NCBI GenBank assembly: GCA_949751835.1
Contig: CATKHK010000055.1
Coordinates: 248,001 to 312,000, forward strand
DNA: 64,000 nucleotides
Direction of reading: 5' to 3'
From: Blepharisma japonicum
Lineage: Eukaryota > Ciliophora > Heterotrichea > Heterotrichida > Blepharismidae
Positions 7,397 through 51,600 of the stretch are shown here, in pieces. A program made the position numbers and the translations under genes. The first letter of the stretch is position 1, and the number at the start of each line of letters is the position of its first letter. The notes beneath the pieces are model-generated. The model saw only the letters and a list, made by a program, of their open reading frames with translations, did not search any database and was not told where the DNA came from.

Positions 7397-8062
7397 TTAA
7401 AATGAACATTCAGTTAAAGAGTCAATCGGGGCTAGCAAACTTAAACACAAAAATGGCTCATATACAAAATATTGCATTACAAAAAAAATCATCCCATTCA
7501 AAATGACATGTATTAATGGAATAAATCTTGCCTTCAGCATGTTATGATATCCAGCCAAAAACTCATTATTATATACCATAAACCTGATTTTATTGTCATA
7601 ACTTCTTCTCTCCCTTAGCATAGTCATTATCTCAGGGTCAAACTTAAAAGACTCCAACTGCTCTGATGCAATTTCAAAGTAAAGATAGCTTGTTGACCCA
7701 CGATTACATAAAATTGGTGAATATACCATATACATGAAAGGGTCTGGGATTCTTTTTTGATTAGATTTCAAGACACACACAGCAAATTCATGAATAAGAA
7801 GTGTAAAGCAGTTCCCGATAAAGGTAAGAAGGTTGATAAAAGGAATAAAATAGAAAAAAAGCATACAAAATAGACAGCGAGATTCCAATGCAAACCAGAG
7901 CTTATAGAGAAAATCATTGTGAGCTGTTTTTAAAAATACCTCGCCTTCACGGTTTACTGCATCATTGTATTGCTCTATCACAAGATTGCAACGAGATATA
8001 GGATCAAATTTTCCTTTTATTTGTTCGCCAAGTTGTGTAAGACCGATTCCTCTTTTATACAT
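7397..8062 (-). CDS. Small multi-pass membrane protein, unknown function
   Basis: 221-aa protein without a recognised family. Residues 1-50 are hydrophilic (KRGIGLTQLGEQIKGKF). Two hydrophobic stretches lie at about 62-98 and one long one at 182-212, so it probably spans a membrane two to four times. A charged loop (residues 125-175, containing MTMLRERRSYDNK) lies between them. It begins 8 bp after the stop of the upstream gene on the same strand, closer than a usual promoter. It ends with TAA and contains no TGA. The length, clean frame and typical stop support a real gene; function is unknown. Confidence 0.7.
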   Translation of the reverse strand: MYKRGIGLTQLGEQIKGKFDPISRCNLVIEQYNDAVNREGEVFLKTAHNDFLYKLWFALESRCLFCMLFFYFIPFINLLTFIGNCFTLLIHEFAVCVLKSNQKRIPDPFMYMVYSPILCNRGSTSYLYFEIASEQLESFKFDPEIMTMLRERRSYDNKIRFMVYNNEFLAGYHNMLKARFIPLIHVILNGMIFFVMQYFVYEPFLCLSLLAPIDSLTECSF

Positions 8063-31566: not shown

Positions 31567-34132
31567 TTATTCCAAACTCGCTTTACCTATCTCATCTGAA
31601 TGCAATAATTTTTCCTTTGCTGCTTCTAACTGTGCATGCTGCTTTATCAAATCAGTCCTAATTTCCTCTTCAGTTTTTTCAATCTAAATATCGTTTACCG
31701 TTCTCAAATTTTCCAATTCTTCAATCAGTCTTTTCCTCAAATCTTCTAATTTCGCATCCTTTTGAGACTGTTCTGCTAATAAATCCTTTATTTCATTTGC
31801 TAACCTTGCCGCTTCTTTGAATTGTTTGCTTGCCGCAGCTGTTTTCTTTTCTGCTTCTAAGCCTGGGATTTTGTTACTAATTTCTCTGATTTTATCTTCT
31901 TCTTGGCGTACGATTTCCCTGAGTGACTCTGTTTGCTGCTTATTTACATTATAATACTCTTGGGCATCTTTTAAAACTTTTTCTTTTTCTTGGACTTGCT
32001 TTTCGCTTTCAGAAATTTCTTTTAAGCACTCTTCCCTAGCAAGAATCAGCTCATCAAGTCTGTCTTTTTCAGATTTTAATAGAGATGCACAGTCTTCTAG
32101 TGACTCTAGTTGACCGCTTTGCTCTTCGAACTTCTGAGTCTGTGATTCAGTTTCAACTGAAAATGCAACCTTTCTGCTTGAAAGACTTTCTTGGGAATTT
32201 TTTATTTCTTGCAGTTCACTTGAAATTTTTTGTTGTATTTCTTGGCTAGATGACAGCTCATCTTCGAATTCCTGCATGCTTTCATACAGCTTTGACTCTG
32301 CAAGAGATAAGCTTTGACGAAGCTCTTTCGATTTCTGTGTTTTTTCTTTGAGAATTCTTTGAAGCTCTTCAATCTCAGACTCTAGCGAAGAGAGTTCAGA
32401 TTCTAATGTACTTTTTTCATCTTTAAGTGATTGGGTCTTTTCATTGATTTTACTTTGTAAAACTTCATAGCTTTCTTTGGCATCCACTTCAGTGCTTTCG
32501 AGAATTTTTTCTTGCTCACTCAGATACTCTTCTTCTTGCTGGAAGCTTTCTTGATTTTCTTTTGAGAGAATCTCGAAGTCTTCTTTATTTTTCTTTAAGA
32601 GTTTTTCAAACTCAGTACGATACTTTGCACTTAATTCATTAGTTGTATTGATCCATACATTTTGAGATTTGTAAATTTCTGTTTTGGAGATTTCCAATTC
32701 TGAGTATAAGTTTGAATTTTCATTTAATTTGGAGTGGTTTGACTCTATTAAAGATCTAAGCTCACCTATTTCTTGGTGATAGTTGTCTGCAGTTTCAAAA
32801 TCATCATTTGCTGCAGCTATGTCTTCAGCCTCCTCAAGCTTTTTTATCTTTTCCTCGGCGTCTAATATCTCTTGTCCTAGCTGAATGCTCTGTTCTTTAA
32901 TTCTTTCTTGCTCTTTTGTTTTTTCTTTAATTTGATTAGAAAATTCTTGAATGGTGCTCTTTATCATTTCTTTCAAGGTTTCAGGATTTTCATAAATTTC
33001 TCTTTCCTTTCTTTCCTTTTCCTGCTTTAATTGCTCTTCTTTGGCTTTATTCAATTTTTCTTCTTGTTCTTTTCGCTTTTTTTCTTCAATCATTTTTTTG
33101 AAGCTATTTTCTTGAGAAGATTCAGTCCTCTTCTCTTTGAATCCTTCCTGCTTTTTCTCTTTTTGAGGCAAAGAAAATGGTGTTTCTGCCTTTTTGTCTT
33201 TATAAATGACTTCTTCATCTTTTGGCAATTTAAATCCCTTTTCTTCTGATCTTTCTTCTTTACTTGGCAATGAAAAAGGCTTGGAGGTTTCTTCAATTGT
33301 ATTTGGCTTTTTTTCTTTGGCTGGCAAGAAAAATGGTTTTGGTTGATCTTCGGCAATTTCTTTCTTTTCTTTGGGTGGTAAATAAAAACCCTTTGATGGT
33401 TCCTCAGAATTTTCTTGCCTTTTTTCTTTGAGATTCATAAAAAGAGGCTTAGGCGAATCTTCTGGAGTTTCTTTCTTTTCTTTAAAATATCCACTCACAT
33501 CTTCTGAATTTACTGATCTTGTCTCACTTCCAGCGCTTTCTTCAGTTTCTGACTCCCCAAATCTCATTTTTCTTGATTTCGCGAAAAATGATGCTTCTTC
33601 TTTGTCATCAGGATAATCTGTAAACTGTTTTGTCGATTTAAAGTTTGTCCCAATTGCCTCTTCTCTTTCTAATTTATTTTCACTCACACTTCTAGATTTT
33701 TCATGTGAAACTTTTTTGAATTCTTCGTGCTTTATAGTTGGCTCAGTTTTAGGTATTTCTAGGCTTGCAAAAGGATCACTTGTTGAAGAATTCATCGTGA
33801 ATCCTCCTCTATCAGAAGCATTATTAAAAGCGTCACTATGAGAAAGCCCAGCTTGAAATGGAAAACCTTGAGAATTTTGTCTTAGATTTGAAGATATATC
33901 ATCAGACATCATTGGTGGCTTAGAAGCCGGCATAGGGAGTTGTGGAGGAACATAATCGCTTGCCTTTTCCTGCTGTACATTTTTAGATGTCTGTCTGACT
34001 GAAAGTCCTGAAAACATATTCATAGGTGCAGGCGAAGGAGCAGGAGCTGGAGGTAGGTTTGGCTTTTGCCTTGACTCTTCTTTCTTAGTTCCAAATATCG
34101 CTAAATTAGTCCTTACTTGAAAGAAAAGACAT
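31567..34132 (-). CDS. Coiled-coil protein with UVR-like motifs and a KPFxLPxKEKK repeat
   Basis: 844 aa after removing two introns (16 nt at 34101-34116 and 15 nt at 31684-31698). The true start is ATG 34130-34132 (MSFLS then TIFGTKK), not the internal Met at 34023. Residues 1-190 are Pro/Ser-rich and disordered, with a DPF motif (SDPFASL) of the type that binds AP-2. About residues 205-315 hold six degenerate copies of a roughly 20-residue unit with FxLPxKEKK. From about 330 on it is nearly continuous coiled coil. Two UVR-like helical hairpins lie near 435 (DDFETADNYHQEIGEL) and 762 (KQFKEAARLANEIKDL). It starts 45 bp from the stop of the next gene upstream. It is probably a cytoskeletal or vesicle-associated scaffold; no orthologue is recognised. 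Confidence 0.8.
31684..31698 (-). other. 15-nt intron, last intron of the coiled-coil gene
   Basis: GTAAACGATATTTAG, phase 0; retained it would end the protein at ENLRTVNDI. Removed, the frame continues IEKTEEEIRTDLIKQ to a TAA at 31567-31569 in matching coiled-coil composition. Confidence 0.85.
34101..34116 (-). other. 16-nt intron, first intron of the coiled-coil gene
   Basis: GTAAGGACTAATTTAG splits a 16-nt first coding exon (ATG TCT TTT CTT TCA A) from the rest. It is phase 1; because 16 is not a multiple of 3, splicing is needed to join the start to the main frame. Confidence 0.85.
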
Positions 34133-34177
34133 TTATTATATTATTGCCCTAATATTGAAACACTGCTGATTATTTAT

Positions 34178-36028
34178 CTACCCTTCAAATGTTTTAAAAG
34201 CAGAAATTATGGCTAGAAATTGTCCTGGGTGGATATCATTAGAAATGGAAAACAAAACCTGTTCTTCTGGCAGCACTTCAAGCTTCAAGCCCATCTGCTC
34301 ATTCTGGTATTCGATTTCTTCATCTTCTACCAATTTTGGTTGTTTTAATTTTTGACATAAAGCATCCTATATATAATTTACCAAATTGTTATAATCCATT
34401 ACATCCTGCAATCGATTCCGAATTCTCAAATAGTCTATATACAATTTTATATTCCTAGATGCTGCATGACTCTGGTCATTGCTAAAAAGCATTTTTCCAA
34501 AAGGACTATAAACGTACCTGTCAAGGCCTTCTTCTTCTGGAGTTAAGGAAATTGGAATAAACTGTTTATACTCGGAATAATAAAGATTTTTCATTGATTC
34601 TAATTTAATTTCTGCTCCCATCCTTTCAATTTTAGTTCATGTGCATGGCAAAAATGCTCTCTGGGCAAGTTTTAAATCTTCTCCTAAAATATAAATTTGT
34701 GCAGTATATGGATAGCTTGAGACTTCTTCATAAAACTGCTGAGTAAGCTTCAAAACTTTTTCGTGCAAAAGTTGATATTCCCCATCACCTTTAAATCCTG
34801 AGTGGTCAATAAAATAGATATTTAGTTCATTAACTGATAAATCGACAATAGCCTGTATTGCTTTAATCATTACATTAGCAGTATCTTCTTTTATCGCCCT
34901 GTTTACTTCTCCTTTAAAAGTTGGGCACTCTTTAACAATCATGTTTCTTTGATTCTGCAATATATTGAAGATAGAGTCTAAAAGATAGTCTTTCAGCATA
35001 TAAAACACATGCCTTCTTCATATTATTATCATAAGCCTCAACACTGTGAACGGCGGCATTTTTGGGGCATTAGGCCAATGTATGTCATAGCTTTGATTAA
35101 TCAAAATGCTGAACGCTAAAAATATTTTGTCTAACCAATAAATGCTTGCACAAAAAGCATCCCACTACATAGAATATACCCTTAAACAATATTCACTCAA
35201 TAATTCTGTGGCTTCTTCAATTAAATTTAAACAATTCCAGCTAGCCACACAATGGATTTTAATTGTTTTTTTCAGTGTACAAAAAAGTTTTATTATCAAT
35301 GGACTGGCGTTAATCAATTTATTTTGAAAATAAGTCGTCAATAAAGTGTTATCAAAATCACCTGAGCTTGAATAGCAGGTCGACTGATTTCCTGAACTTC
35401 CTAACGATAAACTTTTATTTATATCACATTTATTTCCTTTCAAAGCCCATTTAATTATAGCTATTTGATCGATGCTGACATTATCTCCAATCTAAATAAT
35501 GTTTACCTCGTCAATAAGATTTTGATTCATGACCCCCTCAATTATCATTTCAGATTCGGTTGGGAGATTGAAACCAATTTGAGAAGGCTCTTCAAATATG
35601 TGCGCTAATAAGTCTTGGATAATAGTAGGGAACGTTTTAGGCTCACGGCGAAGTGGTGGGGGTGGAAGTAAAGGCTCTTGAAGGGTCAAAAACACTTCAC
35701 GCCGTAAAGTGTCTAAGTCGTCATGTGTAAAACTGTCACCTTTTAGAAGAAGCCAGGAGTGACGGGTTTGGATCAGCTTTTTTAAGAGATGCCTCCAGTG
35801 AGGCTCACGAGTGGGCTTGTAAAGATACTCATCACCTTTATAGATTGAGCTAAATATTAAATACCCAAAAATATCATAATTCCCAAAATAAACCCTCAAG
35901 CATTCACGTTTCCATAATTCGTCCTTTTTTGATACAGAGTTGAATAGCTTATTTACTTGACCAAATGAAAGCAAATCCCTGAATGTCAAATGACGAGCAA
36001 TTATAAAGAGAATGTTTGCTGTGTTCAT
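34178..36028 (-). CDS. F-box protein with a cullin-repeat-like C-terminal half
   Basis: 601 aa from four exons after removing three 15-nt introns; the start is ATG 36026-36028 and the stop TAG 34178-34180. Residues 1-50 are a good F-box (NILFIIARHLTFRDLLSFGQ, then VNKLFNSVSKKDELWKREC), the module that binds Skp1. From about residue 265 the pattern follows cullin N-terminal repeats. It has a W..F..S...L..IF block, then WRRHVFYMLKDYLLDSIF, matching the cullin TWRD helix, and then LTQQFYEE, YILGEDLKLAQRAFLPCTW and EEEGLDRYVYSPF, matching the FY.rES, Y..kaE.rL.eE..r...yL..sT and eDL.rMY.L segments. There is no cullin-homology/NEDD8 domain. It probably acts in SCF-type ubiquitination. The cullin match is my alignment by eye and should be searched. 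Confidence 0.72.
34367..34381 (-). other. 15-nt intron 3 of the F-box gene
   Basis: GTAAATTATATATAG, phase 0, ending with in-frame TAG. Removal joins YNNL to DALCQKLKQPKLVEDEE, open to TAG at 34178-34180. Confidence 0.85.
35165..35179 (-). other. 15-nt intron 2 of the F-box gene
   Basis: GTATATTCTATGTAG, phase 0. Removal joins SEYCLR to WDAFCASIYWLDKIF, which is continuous with the cullin-like pattern. Confidence 0.88.
35492..35506 (-). other. 15-nt intron 1 of the F-box gene
   Basis: GTAAACATTATTTAG, phase 0. Removal joins NQNLIDE to IGDNVSIDQIAIIKWALK, linking the F-box exon to the downstream exons in one frame. Confidence 0.85.
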
Positions 36029-36639
36029 TTTTTAAGTGTTTATTAAATTAATAGATTTGAGTAGGAGCTGAGATATTAGAAATTATATAGAAATTGGACT
36101 TAGCCAAAAAAGGGAAAATTTTAGTTTCTTAATAGATTTTATTTAAATTAATAAATTCCATAAATTAAAGTTTTTTAGAATCTAGAAAGGCAGCAAACCC
36201 ATCTGGGTAAAATAATTCATTTTTATAAATTTGATTATTTATATAATGTTTAAAATAGTGTTTAAACCGTTTATATTTAATATCCCAAAAAGATTTTTGA
36301 TAAAGATATTACATGAAACTATAATTGATAAATTCTGTTTAAGGAATATATTAAGATGATATTTAAAAATAATTTTATGTTTTATGCTATCTCTTATCCT
36401 TCAATAAAATCTCGGTATAACATCCACAATTTGAAAATCTATTTTCAAAATTTGCTTTTTAGTCTCGTGAATTCATGCTGCTCCTTATTGCCAATAAATT
36501 GAATAATTATGTAATAACTTTTTAAATTATATAATTAAAACAAAAAACAATATTTTTTAATAAGTTGAATAATTAAATATCTAAATTTACTTTAAAAACT
36601 GAGATAATTAATGTCCTTTAAAATTATATTTATTATTAA
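36029..36639. other. Intergenic, upstream of the F-box gene
   Basis: 611 bp, very AT-rich, between the F-box gene start and the stop of the giant gene at 36640. No coding frame or RNA gene was seen. Confidence 0.5.
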
Positions 36640-39600
36640 CTAAAATGGATCTCCTTCTCTAGTTTCCAGTCGATGCAAAGCTCTGGCATCGTGATCCATA
36701 GTAATTGAATGATCAAGTGTAATAGTACGCTCACCTTCATGTATCACATAATTCCTTCCACGGCTTTCACTGTTAATCACTTGCAATATTTTTGGCTTCA
36801 CAATCGTATATATTGTTCTAAAAAATGATGATAAACTTGCGAACATTTGTGTCACCATAATAGCAGCAACATTCACATAAATTATTTTTTCAAGCCAAAG
36901 CTCAGCATCATCACCTAAATTCATTACAAATGCTGTAGTCAAAATCATTACAATTCCAACGACAATTTCTGTAAAAATGTTGGAAAATTGATGTAAGAAA
37001 TCTGAATAAGGCCTATAAGTTAACAAATATGAGATAGTCACGACTGAAAGAACAATGTTTATTAGGCCCTGATATATTGGAATACCAGATAGAAAAACTA
37101 ATGATGACATGTAGATTAACCTTCTTATGAAAAATATTGTATAATATTGATAGCTCATCATACCTTGATTGGGTTTAAATTCATAAAATAATGAATCAAA
37201 TTTTTGGAGAAATGGCATTTTTCTTTTAATTATTTGGTACTTATTTACGTATAGAATATAAATCAAAGCAACAGGAGTCACAAATATATACATCTAAATA
37301 AAATTTACACAAAAAGTAATGCAAATAACTGCATTGATAATTTGTGTTTCATTGTTATACGAAAACTAAATAAATTTTACGATGAGTAAGCCAATGATAG
37401 CTGGTGCTCCTATGTCCAAATAGCTTTGTATCCAAAATCTTAAAAATACTGAATACTTATAATGTTTCAAAATTCCGGTGAACCTTTTCCCGAATCATTT
37501 GTTAGAGCATTGAGAAAAGAAGATAACTGCAGGATAAACGATCATTATAGCACTAAAGACAGTTAATAGGTTTCCTGCATTTTGTAAAATAAGATCTGTT
37601 TTATATCCGAATTCTTTGGCTTCTTTATAAGGGGTTTTTCCATCACTTTCTGGAGCTAAAATCTCATAGAAGTTTGGGATTACATCATAGCTATTTAAGC
37701 TGTTTAAAAATAAATATAGTGATGAGGATAATGGTATCCCTGAAAGTGTAATGAATGATAAGACTTGCAATGTGTTTAAAGTAGTCCACAAGCATGATGG
37801 ATCTGGATTAATCAAAGCCATAATCAGAGAAGTAGCAACACTTATATGAATTGCTGCAGTGGTTTGCTGGGAAATTGCTTCAACATTTGATGAGCTTGTA
37901 GCATAATTAAATTCAAATAGTTTTCCAGTTAAATTTTTTTCTTGGAGTATTGAATTATTTGCAGACAAAATTTGGTCATCTACAAAATATAAAGTAACAG
38001 TTGTATTTTGTTTTATATCAGAATCCATCAAGATAGATATATAATATTCTTTAGACCCTCTCATTTCCATAGATCATTCAATTTTTGACTTGTTTTCTAT
38101 TGCTATTTCTATGTCTTTTGAAGTTATATCTTGCATGAGAGTTTCAGAGAAATTCAAATATAAGGAATTATCATAATCTACAGATAAAGTTGCGTTGAAA
38201 AGAGAAATAATACAAATCTTTTTGGATAAGTTATATCCTGGCTTGCACACACAAGCTCCGTTTGATATGATAGCATCTTTAATGCAGCTTAAACAGCTAT
38301 TTGAACTTTCACAAGTAGTGCAGTTTGAAGGGCACTCATAGCATTTCCCATCAGATTCTCCTCTATATTGTGTGCTATTACAATAAGAGCAGGACTCAGT
38401 CAAAGGATCATATCCATATGGCGAGTTGCAAATGCATGTGCTATTAAATGTTGAATTAGTCTTACACTCTATGCAACTGCTTTGATAATCTGCACAATCA
38501 TAGCAAAGAATATCTCCACATAAAGTACAGGACGGGCCTGAATATCTACAAGAATTTGTGCAATTGTTATTACAAGCTCCGCAATTATTAAAGTTTGGCC
38601 CTTTTCAATACTCTAAAATAGGGCAATTTGGGATGCACTTTTTGGTTATCAAACAGGCCGGGCAGCTTTCAATGCACGAGCTATAAGGTAAGGCTAAGTC
38701 ATTTATCGATTTTACCGAATTATAAATAGCGATTTCATATATAAACCCTTTATAAAAGTTTTCATAATTGCTCGTGGTTGTTTGTCTGGCTCCAATTTTT
38801 ACAGAAATACTTGATGCATCATCTTCAAAGTATTGCAGAGGAAGAGATATAAGAGAGGTATCAGAAATTGTATTAATAAAGCAATTTATAGCAGAATTTC
38901 TTGTAGAGTCAGTTGTTAAAATAAATGTTATATGCTGCCAAAATAATTGTGTAATTGGATTTTCACATTTGTGAGTGATTTGTATACCCCGCATTAGTAA
39001 GATTAAGGTGGGATAGCCATCAGCTATTTTTAATTCAAACAATGAACTTCCTACTGAAAGGTGGCTTGATTTATAGAATACTGTTCCAGTAGAGCTTTCA
39101 GTGTTTATTCAAGTCGAAAATGTGAAAACCGTCCCTAAAACCAAGGTTGGGGAAATATAGCTTTTATATTTTGGTAGATGCATAATTGATGAGTTTCCAT
39201 TAAAATAAAATCCTCTCAAGTACGCTGGAAGAGGATCATAGTAATCATAATTGGGATAAAATTTGGTTGAATTCCCTGTCAAGGCTGGGATATTACTGAT
39301 ACTGTCATAAATAACTCCAGTCAGCTTGTCAAATTTCATATCATAAACAAATTCATTCACAAGTTTGCAAATATTTCCGCTCTGAACATATCCCAAAGGA
39401 CAAAATTTCAGACAAACATAGCCTATCATGAAAAACTCAGAGCTGCATTCACTGCATCCAAATGCGCTTGGCTCAATACAATAATTGCATGCCGCACTAC
39501 ATGTCGTGCATTCTAAAGAAACTTCATCTCAAAAATATCCGCTATCACACACACAAACCCCTGTATCTAAATGAGCATTAGTGATGCACTGGATGCACGT

Positions 39601-42600
39601 TGACGCGTAATCATCACATTTATAGCATAAAGGGTCTTGGCAGAGATTGCAATTCGATAAAGAATCTTTACATCCTACAGATGAGCAGGAAATATCACAT
39701 GAAATGCAAGAGGAGCCATCCCAGTATTGAGAAATAGAGCAGGTAGGATAACAGATATTGGAAAGAGGACAAATAGAGCAACTAGAGCAGGAGGTGGAGA
39801 ATAATGATTGAGGGGAGATTAAGAAGTTGTAAAGAAATAGCTCGTAGAGAAAGCCGGTGTAAAAGGAACCGAATGAAGTTGAGGAAGTACGGCTAGATGA
39901 AATGGTTATGTAATAGGAAGAGGTGCAATCTTGAAATCAAGAGCTTGCAGGAAGAGATCGAATATCTACAGAAAGAGAATTAATAATAAACGAAAATTTG
40001 TGAGTTTGCGATGAATCAATTTTATATGTTGCTGCTATAAAGTTTCAGGAATTAGCGGAAACTGAATTCAAACTTGTAGTTGAAACTGTGCTCCCATCTG
40101 TTAAGAGTAACGATAATGTAGGATTATATGAAGAAATTCCAAAAGAATAGATGGATGTTAAAGTTGCATCATTTTTTTGCTTAGTAAACAAAGTTCCTGT
40201 TCCCCCAGTAGGATTGATTCATATAGCTATAGTGAATTCAGGAGAAATAACTAAACTTGGTATTGAAGACACATAGCTATCAGGTACTTTCATATAAGAA
40301 CTGCCTTGAAAATAGTAGCCTCTGTATTTTGCTGCATATGGATCTTTGGTCGTATAAGCTGGATAAAAATTGCTATCATCTCCAGTCATAAATGGCATTC
40401 CTAACTGCGAGTCAATAACAATATCTTTTATTTGGTTTAATTTCAAATCGATGACAAACCCATTTAGCCCAGTAGTATCAAGAGCACAATTCCCAGCATT
40501 TTGAAGGTATCCTGATGGGCAATTCTGTATACAAATATTACTTAAGGAAAAATAACCAGAAGTACACGAAGTACAATCAATGAATCTTAATCCATTACAT
40601 CCAGAACACACAGAATAGCATATTTCGCAGGTCTCCGTTGATTGTGATCATACAGCATTAGAATTACAAGAGCAGCTTCCGCTACTTAAGCTTGCATTAG
40701 GAATGCAAGAGCTGCAAGGGCCATCAAATTTGCTACAAGCTAAGCATTCTTTTTGCTTGCAGAGTCTACAAGTTAAGAGACTTCTACACCCATAAGAGCT
40801 ACAACTTGAAGAGCATGAAGTGCATCCTGATGAATAAAATTGATTAAAAATACAAGAATCAGGGCATAGCAACTCTGAAGGGCAGTTTGAACATCCTGAT
40901 TGGCAGCTAGCTGAAAACCATTCACTTAAAGCATAATTGTTGTCATTGTATATAATAAGACTCCATAAAAATCCTCTAAAACTATTCGAAGATCCAGTGT
41001 TTCCAATTGCAATTGATCCAGAACTGATAAACGGTGATGAGTTTGAAGAAGGCTGAGTAAAGACTTGTGACCCATCTTTATAAAAAGTTATTGATGTTTT
41101 ATAGGCTGAAATAGTCCCAGTAAAAGCTATATTATGCCAACTGCTGAATAAATTTGAAGTTGAGGTGTACAAAGCTGAAGAAGAATCCTCTAAAAGAAGA
41201 GAAATAGTAGCATGACCGCTTGAATCAAACGAAATTGATAAAAGTTGGATTGCACCATTGAGTTGAGTTAAAAAATTACCTTGCCCAGTAGGCTTTACCC
41301 AAACAGTTATTGTGAACCATGAAGAAATGATATAAGAGTTTGTTGAGGTCATCATTGAACCAGTTTTGAAATAATATCCTCTGTAAATTGTGGGTATTGG
41401 ATCATTGCTATCCCAATTTGGATAAGTATTTGTATTGCTCGATCCTACATTGAAAGAATTGACAGTATCCAAATATATTAAATTTTCTAATTGAATTGAG
41501 ATAATAGGAGATGATGGAGGATTTGTGCATTGATTCAAAGAAGAGTCTTCAGTATATCCTGTAGGGCAATGGGCATAGCAAATTCCATTTAAAAAGAAAT
41601 AGCCAGCATTGCAAGCAGTACATTGGGTTGATAATGTTCCAGAACATCCTGAGCAATTTAGAGCGCAGCCTCAAATGCAAGATAAGCCATCAGTAGAAAC
41701 TTTATAGTTTGTATCACAGACACAAGACCCTGAATTGACAGAGGCATTTATTACACAATGAAAGCATAGCCCTAAAGTAAACCCTGTGCATTTGTCACAT
41801 AATAAATCATAACAAATATTGCAAGTAGTTCCTAGTCTGCAACCTAGCGAACATGTTGGGCATGATATGCATGAAGAGCCTGAATAATAGTGACTTAGAT
41901 CGCAAGGCCACAGACAATTTGATCCTAATCCTGCCCCACACAAATCCGTTATTTGAGAAGAAAAATCGGTAATAGGAGTATTTCATAAGGAAAAGTGATA
42001 AATAAATCCATTAAATGAAGAAGTATTGCTTTTTCCAATGAGAAGAGTTTTGCCTACTATATCTCTAAATATGAAATTATTAGATACTATTGGGGTTTGT
42101 GGAGATATATTGCGATAGACTGTAATTGTAGTTGCCCCTAAGGAATATTTCACGGTCAAAGAGATATAATTTCAGTTTGTAATCGTTAAAGAGGCACTTG
42201 AAAGTGTAGTAGTCGATTGCAAAGGGCTTTCTAAAGTTAAAGTAAAAACTCCCAATTCATTCATATACAAAAAATCTTGTTTCTCAAACACATTACCTGC
42301 ACCTATTACAAACACTCATAAACCAATCGAAAAGCTATGTGATAGGTAAATCGGAGCATTGGACTCTAAATATGAACCACTAGAAAAGTATAACCCTCTA
42401 TAATATGCTGGAATAGGATCATAAGTTTCGGGGTTATTATAAAAATAATAAGAACTTGAGCTTAAAGCTGTAGTAAAAGTCCCATATGACCCTTGAAATG
42501 CTGTATCAAAATTCTCATCTATTACGACTGAAGTTGAACTTATACACCCAGGCATAGTAAACCCTGTAGGGCAATCATTTACACAAGCATTTCCAACTTT

Positions 42601-45600
42601 GAATTTCCCTGCTATGCATGCACTGCATTCAAAATAGTAATTTCCAATGCAAGTCTGGCAATAATTATCGCAAATCTCACAGCTCTCAGATGCTTGTATT
42701 CATATTGCATTATTATTGCAGCTACACACTCCAGAATTGAGCTGGGCATTTGTTATACACGAAAAGCAATTTCCATCAAAATGATCACACGTAAGGCATT
42801 CTTTATATTTGCAAAGCCTACAAGTTAATGAGCTCCTACACCCATAAGACCCGCAGCTTGCTGAGCAAGAAACGCAACTTGATGAATAAAATTTATTAAA
42901 ACCACAGCTATCAGGGCATAGTAGTTCTGATGGGCAACTTGAGCATCCTGAACTGCATCCTGTGGTTATTCATTCGGCTAATCCATGATTATTGTCATTA
43001 TAAACATATAAGCTCCATAAAAACCCAGTAAATCCATTACTGCCATCTGAGCTACCTATTAGAATTGATCCTGAACTTGCAAATGGAGATGAACTTGGAG
43101 AATCTAAATAATTAACTAAAGTTCCATCCAAATAAAAGCTTATCCTTGTTTTTGTGTTAACAATATCCCCAGTAAATGCAATATTATGCCAACTGTTAAA
43201 TAATATCGTTGTTGATGTATATAAGATTGTTGAAGCATCTTGTAAAGTCAATATAATTGATACCACGCCAAGAGTGGTAAATGAAAATTTAAGCATAGTA
43301 GGTAATTGCCATAGCAAATATCCCCCAGAAACAGGCTTAACTCATAAGGTTATCGAATATAAAGGACTTATTATATAAGTATTTGTAGAAGCAGCAGAGG
43401 AGGCACCTGTGAAATAATAACCCCTATTAATTGAAGGAATTGGATCATTAGCATCATATGTAGGGTATGTGTTTGTGCTTGAAGAGCCTATTGAAAAGGT
43501 ATTAACGGTATTCAATAGTATCAAATTTTGGAATTGTAAAGAAATTATTGGAGAAGTTGGAGGAGAAGTGCACTGATTTAACCCAGAATCCTGTGTATAT
43601 CCAGTTGGGCATGCAAGTAAGCACATATTGTCATATAAATACCATCCTGAAAAGCATGATGTGCATTGAGTATAAAGAGTCCCTGAGCAGCTAGCACATC
43701 CAGAGTAGCATCCTCATATGCAAGAAAATCCATCAGCTGAAGGGATATAATTTGCATTGCATGCACAAATTCCACCTGTAAGAACGCTAGCATCATTTAC
43801 ACAAGTTAAGCATTGGCCTGAATTAAAAAAGCTGCAAGTTGCACATAATGAATCATAACAAACATTGCATGAATTTAATCTTCTGCAGCCAAGTGGGCAA
43901 GTACTGCAAGAGTTGCATGCTGACCCAGTAAAATATTGGCTTATATCGCAATTTCACAAGCAGCTTGAGCCTAATCCAGTTCCACATAAGTTATTCACTT
44001 CAACAGAAAAATCAATTATTACGGAATTTCATACAGTAACCCAATACAAAAATCCTGAAAATGAAGTACTTAAAGAACTTTTTCCAAGAAAAAGGGCAGA
44101 TGAAAGAGTATCTCTAAACATCTTGCTTGTAGAAGATATTGGCGTACCTAGATTATTATTGATGTAATTAGTAATTTTTGAGTCACCATTCAGGTATTTT
44201 ACTGAAATTGATATATATCCTCATCCTGTAAATGTCAGAGCTGATGCTGTTACAGTGCTAGTAACTTGCAAAGGGTTCTGCAAATTAATTTTTATTTGGC
44301 CATTACTACTTATTGTAAACCTATTTTGTTTCTCTAGAATATCTCCAGCACTTTCTACAAGAACCCATATGCCGAGAGAAAAGCTTGAAGATAAATATTG
44401 AGACACAGAGCTTTCTAGGAATTTTCCGCTTGAAAAATAAAGACCTCTAGAAACAGCTGGGATTGGATCGTCAGTTTCAGGACTATGTGAGAAATAATAA
44501 GTGCTTGGATTTGCTCCTACATTGAAAATCCCATAATTTCCTTGAAAATTATTATATAAGGAAACACCAACTATTGGAGATGATGAACTGGTACAGCCAG
44601 AACTGCTAAATCCAGTTGGGCATTGATGCAAACATACAGTACCTACAAGAACTTCTGTAGCAATACAAGTAGTGCATTCAAAATAATAGCTTCCAGCGCA
44701 GCTGCTACAAAGATTATCGCAGATTTCACAGGTTGAAGATAATTGAACCCATATAGAATTAGAGTTACAAGCACAATTTCCACTATTCAATGAAGCATTT
44801 GTAATACATGAACTGCAATCTCCAGTAAAATCAACACAGGATAAACATTCTTTTTGCTTACACAGCCTACAGGTTTGTGTTGATCTGCAGCCATAAGGAC
44901 TGCAGCTTGCTGAGCAAACAGTACAGCTTGAAGAATAAAAATATCCAAAATCACAAATATCAGGGCATAATTTTTCTGAAGGACAGTTTGTGCATCCTGT
45001 AGGACATCCAGATGTCATTCACTCACTTAGAGAGTGTATATTATCATTATATATTTTTAAGCTTCAAATAAAGCCAGCAAACGAATTACTAAGACTTTGC
45101 TTTCCTACAATAATTTGTCCAGCACTGATAAACGGCTGCTTATTGCTACTTGACAAATTTGATTTAGCAACTCCATCCAAGACATAATAAGCAACTGTAT
45201 ACCCATTCACAATGTCTCCATAAAACGCGATATTGTGCCAAGAGAAGAACAAATTATTTGTTCCATTTATCTGCACTGTTGAAGAATCTTCCAATTGTAT
45301 GATAAAATTTATATGCCCGTTTGAGTCAATTGAAATGCCCATCATTAAAACAGTTCCATTTAACTGCGAAACTATGGCTCCTTGATTCATTGGCTTTGCC
45401 CAGATATTTATCGTATGTCAAGGACTTATAAGGAGGTTTGTGGTTGAGGTCATGTATTTTCCAGAAGAAAAATAATAGCCTCGACTTATTGAAGGAACTG
45501 GATCTGCAGTATCAAAGGAAGGATAAGGGCTGGAGGCTGAGCCAACTGTAAAAACATCAACTGAATCGAGATGAATTAAATTTTGCAAAGCTAATGTAAC

Positions 45601-48600
45601 TATAGAAGATGATGGAGGATTTGTGCATTGGTTTAAAGTAGTATCTTGTGTATAGCCTGTTGGGCATGAGGAAAAGCATTGATTGTTGAGTAGATAATAA
45701 TTTGTATTGCAAGATGTGCATTGATTGTATACTAAATTCCCCGTGCAGGTTGCGCATCCAGTTGTGCAAGCCCAACTACATGAAAGCCCATTAGCCGAAA
45801 CCCAATAATTTGCATTACAAGCACAGGCCCCAGCTGCAGGAGTGGCATTCAAAACGCATGCCGTACACTCTCCTGGTCCAAATCCGCTGCAAGTGGTGCA
45901 TAATGAGTCATAGCAAATATAACAACTCTGGCTTCTTCTGCATCCTGAGCTGCATGAACTACAACTAGTGCAAGAAGATCCTGTATAATAATTATTTATA
46001 TCACAAGCCCACAAACAGCTTTTGCCTAGCCCTGATCCACATAAATTATTTACTTGTGAAGAAAAAGCAGTAATTGGGACATTTCATAGCGTAAACCAAT
46101 AAATAAAGCCTTTAAAATTAGAAGATGTACTTTTTCCAATATATAATATTTTCGACATTTGATCTCTGAAAATCATGCTGTTAGAAGTAACAGATGTTTT
46201 TGCTACATTATTAGAGTAAACAGTAATAGAAGTAATTGTGCTTGAAGACACAACTGTAAATGAAATATAATTTCACCCGGAAAGAGATGAAATCGCGGGT
46301 GAGCTTGATGAAGTTGCAACTTCATTTGGATTTTCTAGTAAAACTGTTAATAATCCGTTAGATGCTAATTTTAAATAAGTCTGTTTATATATGATATCAC
46401 CATTTGTAATTGAATATACCCAAACTCCCATTGAAAAACTATGTGAAAGATAAACCTCTACGCTTGAATATAGAAATTGGCCAGGAGAGAAATAAAGCCC
46501 TCTGCTATAAGCTGGAGTAGGATCAACTGATTCAGGAGAATTTCAAAACTGATAAGAGGATGCACTCGTCCCTGTTATAAAATTCCCATAGCTTCCGACA
46601 AAGTCCCCATAAAAAGTTTGGTCAATTACTGCAGTTGATATCAATCCACAGCCAGAAGAAGTAAATCCATATGGACACTCTCTTATGCATAAATTTCCTA
46701 TTAAAACATTTCCAGTGCCACAAACACTGCACTCAAACAATGCAGTTGATGCACAAGTTTGGCATAAATCATCGCAGCTAATACAGCTTTGCGTTGGTAT
46801 ATCAAAAACAGCATTTATGTTGCAATAGCAAGACCCCGTGTCAAGATATGCGTTAGGTATGCAAGTAAAGCAATCTCCAGTGAATTCATCACATGATAAG
46901 CAAGTGCTTTGCTTGCATAGCCTACAAGTTAGCCCATTTATACAACCATAGTTGCAGCTTGATAAGCAGTTACCACAAGTTGTTCCAGGATATGTGTCTA
47001 TTAAGCACTCACTAAGGCATACAAGAGTGCTAGGACATTTAGAACAAGACCCGCTGCATCCCGTGCTTACATAATCCAGCCCGTAACTAGTTGCATTTGT
47101 ATATATGTTGATTCTATCAATAAACCCTTGGAATCCATTACTCATAGTATAATCACTTCCTATATAAAGTAGCCCTGAAGTTGAATCTCCAAAATAAGAA
47201 AGCGCAGCCACTGTTTTAGTTTGGTCGACAGCCCCATTAACATATACATTAAAAGTTGTCGCCCCGTAAACACTCAGATCTGATATCTGTGAAGTATCGG
47301 AAAACAAGCTAGCTGTTGTTGAAAAGAAATATCAAGAGTTAAATAAACTTGTATCTGTGGTTATATTTATTGTAGATGCAGTTCAAAATGTTGCCATTGT
47401 GCAATTTAAGGTTGCTTGGCCTTGACTATTTATTCTTATCTGCAGTATTGGGCTAGTAGTGTATTTCATAAGGACAGTTCCATTTTGAAGAGCTTTAAGC
47501 CACATAGAAATAGTAAAAGTTGGCCCAAACATGTAAGATGTAGATACAATATCTGAACCAGAAAAATAATAACCTCGATTTATTGCTGGGGAAGGATCAT
47601 TAGTGTCGTAATTAGGGTATGTATTTGTGTTGTCAGAGCCTATATCGAGAAAACCTATTGTATCAAGCTTAAGTAGGCCATAAAAATCTAGAAAATATGC
47701 AGTTGAGCTGGAGAGATCGCAGTTGTTTGTTGAAGGATTCATAGTATATCCATCAGGACATTGAGTTACACACATGCCGTTGTTTAAGTAATAGCCTGAG
47801 AAGCATATGGTACAAGAGTTATAAAGCCAGCTCAAGCAATGTTGACAGCCTGTTTGACATGCTTGACAAATATAATTGTGCATAGTGAAATATCCATCAT
47901 TGCATACGCAAGCTTGAGAACCACCTCCTGTAGCATTAATTACGCAAGTTGTGCATGATCCTGGGCTGAAATTGGTGCATGTAGCGCATAATGGATCATC
48001 ACATTGATTGCAAAGAATGTTTCTGAGACAGCCTGTTAGCGAGCTGTCACAAGCAGCACAGCTTGAAGCATCATTATATAAAGTAGAAGTATAGTGATAT
48101 AAGCATGTGCTTTTAAGTCCAGTTCCACAAATATTATCATTAATTCATGAAGAGAAATCAGTGACCAAGACATTTCACAGTTGGAATGAGTAAATGTATC
48201 CTGTAAAGCAGTTATAATAAGCATTGATTCTTAAGTAACTTATAATTTTTGGCCTAAATAAATAATTATAATTCGTTTGAGTTGTGACAGAATTTCCATT
48301 CGCATAGATATTGATATTGGTGCTACCATATCCATAGCTTATTGTAAATGATAAATAATTTCATGAATTGCTAGGTATTGCCGCACTTCCTAGTGAAAAT
48401 TTATATTTTGTTCTCCACTTATCATTTAATTGATAGAGCAAAGATCCGTCAGTAGAAAACACAAAATCATAGTTATAAAATGATGAAGAATAAGATACCA
48501 TATTTCCATCTGTCAAAGTATTCACTCAAATACCAACTGAAATGTCATGATTAAGCCAAACATTATTCGTTTGCAGATATATTGCTTCATTAATGAATAA

Positions 48601-51600
48601 TCCTCTTTGATCAGGCGTAATCACATCATTATTATCAAGGGTTTGGAAAAAGCTGTAGCGATTCGAGTCCATTTTGGTTTTGAATACTCCATAAGTTCAC
48701 TGAAGACTGCTATTAAAAAATTCATCGATAACTGGAGTTGATACTGGGGAACAGCCAGAGCCAAAGCCATATGGGCAAGCATATAAGCAGTTCAATCCTA
48801 TGGGAGTAAATTGTAGGTAGCATTCTGAACACTCAAAATATGTAGTGCCTAAGCATGTTTTACAAGCTGAATCGCATAGATCACATTTAAGAGTAGCTGG
48901 ATACCAAAAATATTGATCATTTCAAAAGCAGCCACCATTTCCATCAGGAGATGCATTGGGAACGCATGTAGTGCATGGACCTGAAAATGATAAACAGCTA
49001 TAACATGGAGGCATTTGGCAAAGTCCACATGAGACGCTATTCTACATCCATTTGTGCAAGAAGCAAGACAGCTCGTGCATGCTGATGTTGAAGAGTCTAG
49101 ATATGATAAAAATGAGCACATTGGTAATGCTAACCCACTTGGACATGGAGAGCCTCCACAGCTAGCTGAATTTCAATCAGCGCCATATTTTGTTTCGTCA
49201 TTATAAGCTGAAAGGCTTCACAAGTAGCCTATGAATCCTCCAGATGATTTGCCAATATACATATCCCCTAAGTCATACAAGTATGCTAAATTTGTTGACG
49301 TAGATGAAGCTACAAGAGCATTATTAATATACATATTCAATTTCGTGTTACCAGAAGAAACCAATCCAACTATTGATAGATAATTTCAACTATTTATCAC
49401 AGAAGAAGTTTTTGATAAATTCAATGTAGAAGCGTCAGATAAAGTTAATGAAACTGTTGGGTAGCCTGTTCCTGATATAATCGAGATTGAAATATAAGTT
49501 ATAGTTGAAGATTTCTGAAATAGAATACCTCCAGATGTAGGATATATCCAAAAATTCAAAGAAAAATAAGGTGATATGTAATTTCCTGAGCTTATTAAAT
49601 ATCTTGAAGATCTAAAGTAGTATCCCCTATCGTAAGATGGTGTAGGATCATTGCTATCGTAGCTTGGATATGCATTATCATTTTTTGAGCCAACCTGAAA
49701 AGAAGAGATCATGTCTAGAATAATAATTTCATAGAAAGTGCTAGATATTACCAAATTTGTAATTTGGGTGCACTTATTTAACGTGCTATCTTGAGAATAT
49801 TGTGATGGACAACTAGCCATGCAAATTCCTCTAAGTAAATAAGTCCCCGATGGGCAGGTAGTGCATGAATAATAACCTGGGCCAGAGCATGCAGTACAAG
49901 AAGTGTAGCATTGGTTGCATATAGATAGTCCAGCTGGTTTATAATACCCAGTATTGCATACGCATGGATTTCCTGCTGCATTAGATATGCATTGAATACA
50001 GCTTCCGCTATTAAAAGAACTACAAATTTGGCATAAATTATCATCACAAATATTGCAATTTCCATTTAAAATGCATCCAAGCGAGCATGTTCCGTCACAT
50101 GCAATGCAATCTGATCCCCAAAACAAAAATCCGCAATTTCACAAACAGTTAATCCCATTCCCAGTTCCACATCCTCCACCTCCCATTTCTACAGAAAAAT
50201 CATTGATAACTCCTCCCCAGAGTTTAAAATAGCTTGCAAATCCATTATAATTATCTGAAACACTCTTTCCTATAAATAATTGATTATTGCTAGCAGGTCT
50301 AAATACATAGTTGCTTATGAAATTCGGTGTGCTAGGAGAGTTATTGGAATACACAATAAGTGTTGTTTGTTTATTGGAGAAGTTGACTGAAAAAGATAGA
50401 TATGCTCAGCTAGAAGCGCTGATAGAGACTGAGTTAGATAAAATGGCTGTTGCTGTATTATCTCATGAATCTAATCGCAACGTAACTAAGCCTGACGAAG
50501 AAGCCTTGAGACTTCCATATGAATTTCCTAATATATCGCCTGATCCAGGTCTGACTCATAAGGAAATTGTAAATGTATGTGAAAGATCAATATTGCCTGC
50601 TAAATATTTCCCAGAAGAAAAATAGAGACCTCGGTTTTGAGATGGCACAGGATCTAAAGCTTCTGGGGAGCTAAAAAATTGATAACTTGAAGAGTCAGTC
50701 CCAGTGATAAAGATTCCATAGCTCCCTGCAAAAGGAGTATTAAAATCAGTGGAAATCAAAATTCCATTATTTGTGGCACAGCTTCCAAAGCCATAAGGGC
50801 AAGAATTTAAGCATACTCCATCAATCAAAAATTTCCCAGTTTTGCATGTACTGCAGCTCCAAGTTTGACTACAAGTATCACACAAAGCGTCACAGCAGCC
50901 TGGAACCAGTCCAGTGCTGCAAATTGTGCACATCGAGGTTTCGTAGCCATCGCAAGCCGTACAATCCAAGCTTTTGCATATTAAACAATTTTCATTTTTA
51001 TTTCTGATACATCATGGCCAATTTTGACAAGTATCACATGAATTGCAATTTGATCCATCCCAGTAATAAGAATTTGGACAGAGAGGAGGACTGATGGCTG
51101 GATAATATATTGTATTATCACTATTAACTTGGATCCAATAAATAAAACCTTGGAAAGAATTTGCTGGATCTCCTATAACTCAATCATAGCTACCATTAGG
51201 AAAGTTTGCCTCTCTGTCTGAAATAATAAATGATGCTTGAGCATTATTTATAATAATTTGTAAATCAATTGAATTATAAGCTGTTTGAATAAATTGGAAA
51301 GTTACGGCCTCTCAGGCATTAGTTAATCCAGGTGCTTGCTGAATCACTAAATCATTATTTCCAGAGTTGAGCCTATTTTTCAATAATAAGCTTAGTTGAT
51401 AGTTCCCAGATAAAGCTTCAATTTTAATATATTCTAAAGTTCCAATTTTTGTTTTAAAAATAACACCAGAAGAAAGAGGGAAAATTCAAATATTCATTGT
51501 AAATAGATAGCCAGGGATATAATCATTCGAATTTTTCAAACTTGAAGTAATCGCAAAGTAAAATCCTCTATCTACAGTGGGAAGAGGAGTATTTTCACTT

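Follow-up and report, generated by a model that had tools for sequence, protein, structure and literature searches.

Single polypeptide chains that carry an N-terminal F-box followed by a half homologous to the N-terminal domain of cullins are encoded by at least ten genes in the genome of Blepharisma japonicum. Known SCF ligases have these two components on different chains, with Skp1 joining them. One of the ten genes lies at 34178..36028 on the (-) strand of the window, by which we mean the whole stretch of 64,000 nucleotides that was analysed. A sequence-only reading of this DNA had proposed one chain containing an F-box and cullin N-terminal repeats, and this is borne out by single open reading frames, by Pfam and by a family profile; the coordinates, strand, frame and both halves that it gave were likewise recovered when the minus strand was read with TGA as Trp. 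Among the titles and abstract openings listed for such architectures and for partial cullins, in literature that lies mostly outside subscription journals, none describes an F-box-cullin fusion, an absence that is not proof of novelty. A conserved one-chain family that has no catalytic end suggests that a cullin half has been recruited into an F-box protein, and provides a natural construct with which to ask if the N-terminal domain of cullins can act as a receptor, a decoy or a scaffold.

The coding region in the window comprises five exons, all on the (-) strand, and gives a product of 596 amino acids that ends at a TAG stop codon when TGA is read as Trp. Exon 1 (35865..36028) starts with the ATG at 36028 and is followed by exon 2 (35507..35849), exon 3 (35180..35491), exon 4 (34382..35164), which encodes most of the cullin-like half, and exon 5 (34178..34366), which encodes a family-specific C-terminal tail. 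Introns 2 (35492..35506), 3 (35165..35179) and 4 (34367..34381) are each 15 nt long, have GT..AG ends and are all required for an open frame. Aligned by eye, introns 2 and 3 occupy the same positions in the copies on contigs C17, C47 and C5 (members are named here after their contigs), with intron 3 of C47 being 16 nt, and intron 4 is present in C17 too. The 15-mer at 35850..35864 (GTATTTAATATTTAG) also has the pattern of an intron and can be translated through in the window copy. It is very probably intron 1, because the closest paralog, C17, carries an in-frame TAA in the homologous 15-mer, and counting it shortens the product from 601 to 596 amino acids. The three 15-nt introns described earlier are all needed, but their number is probably four. 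In the related Blepharisma stoltei TGA encodes Trp and introns as a rule measure 15 or 16 bp, according to the part of the published account used here (PMC9942806).

The F-box comprises residues 6–45, encoded at 35894..36013 (-), and is recognised by both the Pfam F-box-like model (2.9e-6; 27.4 bits against a cut-off of 24.3) and the F-box model (3.6e-4; 20.8 bits against a cut-off of 20.5). The F-box-like cut-off is passed at all ten loci, nine in the genome search and the tenth, C35, in a scan of the protein (27.1 bits). Since nine of the 50 F-box-like matches in the genome at E<=0.001 belong to the family, it is not marginal for the cell. Downstream of the F-box the family alignment contains a linker motif, P..P.P.LRR....FPTI.QDLL, which is conserved in several members, lies at approximately 35605..35695 (-) in the window and has no Pfam match. 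A separate tandem expansion of F-boxes was seen on contig C87, where positions 7566–29151 hold twelve F-box-like matches within 22 kb, all on the + strand.

The family was collected by searching the 45.2 Mb of the genome (224 contigs), in which match counts are lower bounds. Exon 4 as query gave ten matches, window included, and exons 1–2 (35507–36028) gave ten matches at the same ten loci, each on the same strand as, and upstream of, the exon-4 match. Two further member proteins used as genome queries gave no new locus with both halves and only a few short, weak matches elsewhere. The ten genes (L025–L034) form five pairs with 44–81% identity within a pair and approximately 22–33% between pairs, rising to 40–42% between C2/C37 and C20/C56. 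In six members (C37, C2, C20, C56, C99 and C35) both halves lie in one uninterrupted open reading frame of 526–562 codons from the chosen ATG, and tiny introns are required only in two pairs, window/C17 and their nearest relatives C47/C5. No relatives were found in phages, and of seven pattern matches in viral contigs none was confirmed.

As six members are uninterrupted open reading frames, the fusion cannot stem from splicing. The alternative raised with the initial proposal, that the window locus yields two separate transcripts, is in effect excluded by these single frames and by the C17 copy, which aligns with the window gene as one unit; together with the shared introns they led us to reject an artefact of two genes or of splicing. 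By blastn, window positions 34139–36047, which comprise the gene and little more, match the C17 copy at 78.5%, and the only other match between 12 kb of the window and 9.5 kb around C17 is 37 bases long. None of the three window open reading frames flanking the gene has a tblastn match beside the C17 copy. The flanks of the two copies are thus unlike over the stretch compared, and the duplicated unit is therefore the gene. Both of its halves are under purifying selection: dN/dS between the window and C17 copies is 0.077 overall, 0.12 for the F-box and linker and 0.063 for the cullin part. Three other pairs gave values of 0.154, 0.167 and 0.222, and C47/C5 gave 0.165 at a dS of 3.1 that makes it hardly usable.

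The relationship of the C-terminal half to cullins is remote, and its detection requires profiles on both sides. Searched alone against Pfam (limit E 10, with HMMER filters discarding most matches above approximately 0.1), the window protein has no cullin match, and phmmer of exon 4 against the PDB sequences returned no cullin, only weak matches to non-cullin proteins (TMEM175, RPA32). It had been suggested that the lack of a cullin hit in profile searches would refute the fusion; applied to the window protein alone this test would wrongly reject it, while profiles of the family are positive. Pfam Cullin is above its cut-off in two of the ten members, C2 (4.3e-11) and C37 (6.6e-11), which are also above the F-box-like cut-off (4.7e-8 and 1.3e-9, respectively) and were already above cut-off when the genome was searched with Pfam Cullin. 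Scans of seven other members with Pfam (four whole and three by exon 4 only, including C47 and C5) gave no cullin match, and in total eight members, including the window gene, fall short of Pfam Cullin, C47 and C5 being judged on exon 4 only.

A family HMM was built from an alignment of the ten members (A1; six whole, four by exon 4) and compared with the sequences in the PDB. It matched CUL1 at 8.4e-9 (1ldk_A) and 1e-8 (6wcq_D, chain positions 88–311, the same stretch as in 1ldk_A) and CUL5 at 8.1e-6, while its first positions matched F-box/WD proteins at 1.7e-5, so that one profile matches both families. The profile-supported homology to the cullin N-terminal domain corresponds to approximately 34550..35275 (-) in the window, which lies opposite positions 88–311 of the CUL1 chain and which, by the usual repeat borders, would take in repeat 2, preceded by the later part of cullin repeat 1 and followed by the start of repeat 3. 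We then compared alignments directly with hhalign, using eight cullins of the same genome as the target (A3). A1 reached a probability of 94 and a score of 69.6, and an alignment restricted to window exon 4 and its counterparts in the other members (A2) reached a probability of 80 and a score of 50.2. The best scores in 100 column shuffles of A3 were 30.4 and 29.6 for A1 and A2 respectively, and the reversed A3 gave 21.9 and 20.5. With the score of 69.6 so far above both kinds of control, chance resemblance to cullins was rejected.

Searches between the family and single cullins of the same genome were less uniform. An HMM of the family C-terminal part did not single out the eight own cullins among 2000 shuffled and eight reversed sequences: the best of them, L001, came after five shuffles with an E of 1.6, and the other seven were absent from the best 14 matches. 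In the opposite direction an HMM of the own cullins placed six of the ten members (C56, C2, C99, C35, C37 and C17) above all 2010 controls; C20, C47, C5 and the window member were not above all of these, and the window member scored no better than shuffles. Residues W257, R329, Y392 and T421 (C2 numbering) are common to cullins and invariant in the family, which also has a conserved motif of its own around D.S.NE....F.NHS. We conclude that the helical half is homologous to the cullin N-terminal domain, a likeness that is more than chance.

Structure prediction had been proposed as a check on the cullin half, and it ranked cullin complexes first for both C2 and window exon 4, with modest matches in both cases and weak E-values for the exon. 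AF2 of C2 with the family alignment gave a mean pLDDT of 62, the F-box and much of the linker being poorly predicted; over residues 221–450 the ten-residue means were 64–92, except for 51 at 361–370. The predicted helices span residues 147–180 and, after a low-confidence loop, 220–245, 249–270 and 272–285, ahead of a long helix at 297–333. By the usual repeat borders, their arrangement in this model resembles cullin repeat 1 continuing into repeat 2. Sequence support for helices 1–2 of repeat 1 is weak and comes from the alignment of C99 and C35 to the own-cullin HMM; with the helix order in C2 it places these helices and the loop tentatively at 35276..35566 (-) in the window. When the full-length C2 model was searched against the PDB with Foldseek, rows 1–39 were all entries of cullin complexes (prob 0.97–1.00; the table names entries and not always chains) and row 40 was the first other. 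The best E was 3.2e-4, three matches were at E<=0.001, query TM-scores were at most 0.34 and rmsd was often above 7. Window exon 4, modelled with the family at a pLDDT of 83, gave 14 leading rows from cullin complexes (prob 0.84–0.99, query TM-score 0.43–0.50), the best E being 0.098 and none being at E<=0.001.

No RBX1- and NEDD8-binding part of a cullin was recovered in the family. The match to Pfam Cullin extends no further than position 230 of the 620 in the profile, the 14 matches to this model across the genome include no C-terminal one at any of the ten family loci, and the whole window protein has no Pfam match to the cullin homology, RBX1-binding C-terminal domain. For the winged-helix neddylation segment, Pfam gives no match in the complete proteins of the window gene and C17 or in the six single-frame members. 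The initial statement that a NEDD8-site/RBX1-binding domain is absent is thus upheld by Pfam scans of proteins and genome, and because this end was not found it is unlikely that the family protein itself acts as a ligase scaffold.

The adaptor side of the cullin-like half is less clear. In a HMMER alignment to CUL1, a Tyr of CUL1 that we take to face and contact Skp1 is matched by L, A, M or S in every one of the ten members; the column lies two positions before an invariant Asn (N279 of C2), in the helix preceding the long one. By motif the Tyr is present in seven of the eight own cullins, no such motif being found in L007. With the own-cullin HMM, by contrast, a nearby Tyr of C99 aligns to the cullin Tyr, and since the two alignments disagree the loss of this residue is a weak argument. 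As read from the sequences, the replacement would lean, weakly, against a protein that competes for Skp1. For CUL3, clusters of Tyr in helices H2 and H5 are described as touching the adaptor in the part of the source consulted (PMC10564622).

A canonical SCF on which these proteins could dock is likely to be present in the cell, because Skp1, an RBX1-like RING and near-full-length cullins were all matched in the genome. There are 12 matches to Skp1, nine near-full-length cullins and 122 matches to RBX1-like RING, of which the best is at 4.5e-22 and most others were taken as different RINGs. Skp1 has been multiplied too, with five of its 12 matches lying close together on contig C108 (84304–98665). 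Three cullin matches are C-terminal only: L051 on C39, which by eye we take to resemble APC2, L052 on C18, a divergent cullin-like open reading frame, and L053 on C94, an incomplete copy close to a divergent full-length cullin. These three loci were read as candidates for a cullin C-terminal half acting in trans, and no link to the family was seen.

Our tentative preference, held at somewhat less than even confidence, is that the family proteins are F-box receptors docked on Skp1, with a cullin-derived half that binds a partner. The C-terminal half would descend from the adaptor-side, N-terminal domain of a cullin, probably of CUL1 type, minus the C-terminal domain. One of the Skp1 proteins of the cell would hold the F-box and so put the chain on a complete cullin-RBX1, as it does for any F-box protein. 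WD40 or LRR domains occupy the receptor half in other F-box proteins, and the cullin-like helical array would here take their place and bind a partner or substrate, perhaps an adaptor, a regulator or another protein that also partners cullins. Going by a single alignment column, the array may have lost the cullin way of binding Skp1, in which case one chain would not fold back onto its own F-box through Skp1. The CUL7-FBXW8-SKP1-CUL1 assembly is a precedent for a cullin acting as receptor on another cullin, as far as the part of its description used here extends (PMC9507964).

Whether the cullin-like half binds Skp1 decides between such a receptor and a competitor. As a competitor the half would still bind Skp1 or Skp1-F-box pairs, either as a clamp, with the F-box and cullin repeat 1 of one chain bridged by a single Skp1, or by capturing Skp1 modules from real cullins and, having no RBX1 end, damping SCF activity. 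Both Skp1-facing modules are in one chain, the catalytic end is missing, CUL1 is the best solved relative, the order of helices in the C2 model could represent a complete cullin repeat 1 and the C99 Tyr falls opposite the cullin Tyr under the own-cullin HMM. We nevertheless regard a competitor as rather doubtful, given the replacement of the Tyr in all ten members under the CUL1 alignment and the weak sequence support for helices 1–2 of repeat 1. It is more doubtful again, and indeed distinctly improbable, that the half still binds Skp1 and so gives every chain a Skp1 site at either end. Were this true, chains could join head to tail via the numerous Skp1 variants as F-box-Skp1-cullin strings, or self-close, and the SCF ‘front end’ would reside in one polypeptide with no catalytic arm, a novel tier of regulation for cullin ligases.

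The array might also be no more than a rod of helices, acting as a spacer or as a surface for binding partners and no longer tied to the partners of cullins. The strong divergence between pairs (mostly 22–33% identity) and the family-specific motif around D.S.NE....F.NHS fit a rod, which is nevertheless unlikely as selection is strong and W257, R329, Y392 and T421 of C2, all shared with cullins, are invariant. A helical half that is not derived from cullins, resembling them by chance or convergence, would agree with the lack of a cullin match for the window protein alone, with the weak Foldseek result for exon 4 (best E 0.098) and with the failure of the family C-part HMM to find own cullins, but is very improbable in the face of two Pfam Cullin matches above cut-off, the CUL1 match at 8.4e-9, the shuffle controls and the 39 leading rows from cullin complexes in the C2 fold search. 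The window copy does require three or four tiny introns, predicted from DNA, which is what would be seen if a neighbouring F-box gene and a helical gene had been wrongly joined over 15-nt introns. The probability of this is close to negligible: single frames in six of ten members already exclude an artefact for the family as a whole, four members have introns 2 and 3 at common positions, the C17 copy matches the gene as a single unit, and Blepharisma stoltei as a rule has introns of this size (15 and 16 bp) in the portion of the source drawn on (PMC9942806).

Compared with known families, the proteins are like the F-box proteins that serve SCF as substrate receptors (such as FBXW, FBXL, FBXO) in having an N-terminal F-box above the Pfam cut-off, a larger C-terminal half and a multigene family, and differ in that this half is a cullin-type helical array and not WD40, LRR or another receptor domain recognised by Pfam. 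With cullins, of which the nearest solved are CUL1 and then CUL5, they share the homology of the N-terminal domain and the first ranks in fold searches; they differ in the F-box in front, in lacking the cullin homology domain with its RBX1-binding and neddylation parts, and, under one alignment, in the replaced adaptor-side Tyr. Partial cullins exist elsewhere, an example in animals being CACUL1. Small cullin-like proteins, of plants to go by the context, are also partial cullins, and the part of the source that covers them mentions no F-box (PMC2785787). In the CUL7-RBX1-FBXW8-SKP1 complex with CUL1 a cullin relative is likewise joined to a catalytic CUL1 via an F-box protein and SKP1, although what is one chain here is divided there between CUL7 and a separate F-box protein, as described in the section consulted (PMC9507964). 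The same section has CUL7 lacking cullin repeat 1 but binding RBX1, while the family shows the reverse, with at least part of repeat 1 and no RBX1 end. Gene fusions in CUL7 and PARC/CUL9 also place cullin sequence in unusual domain company; the domains named in the portions of the two sources used are ARM, CPH, DOC and RBR, and not F-box, and both proteins are without cullin repeat 1 (PMC2785787, PMC11257990).

Two other long frames were seen on the (-) strand of the window. Next to the gene, at 31684–34140, there is a frame of 818 amino acids that by eye is strongly charged and coiled-coil-like with repeated short motifs, and that has no tblastn match beside the C17 copy. The other, at 37366–49041, is open for 3891 amino acids with TGA as Trp (34 codons being read otherwise than in table 11) and appears by eye to be Cys-rich, with repeated blocks and with hydrophobic stretches near the C-terminal end, which makes it a candidate for a giant surface protein.
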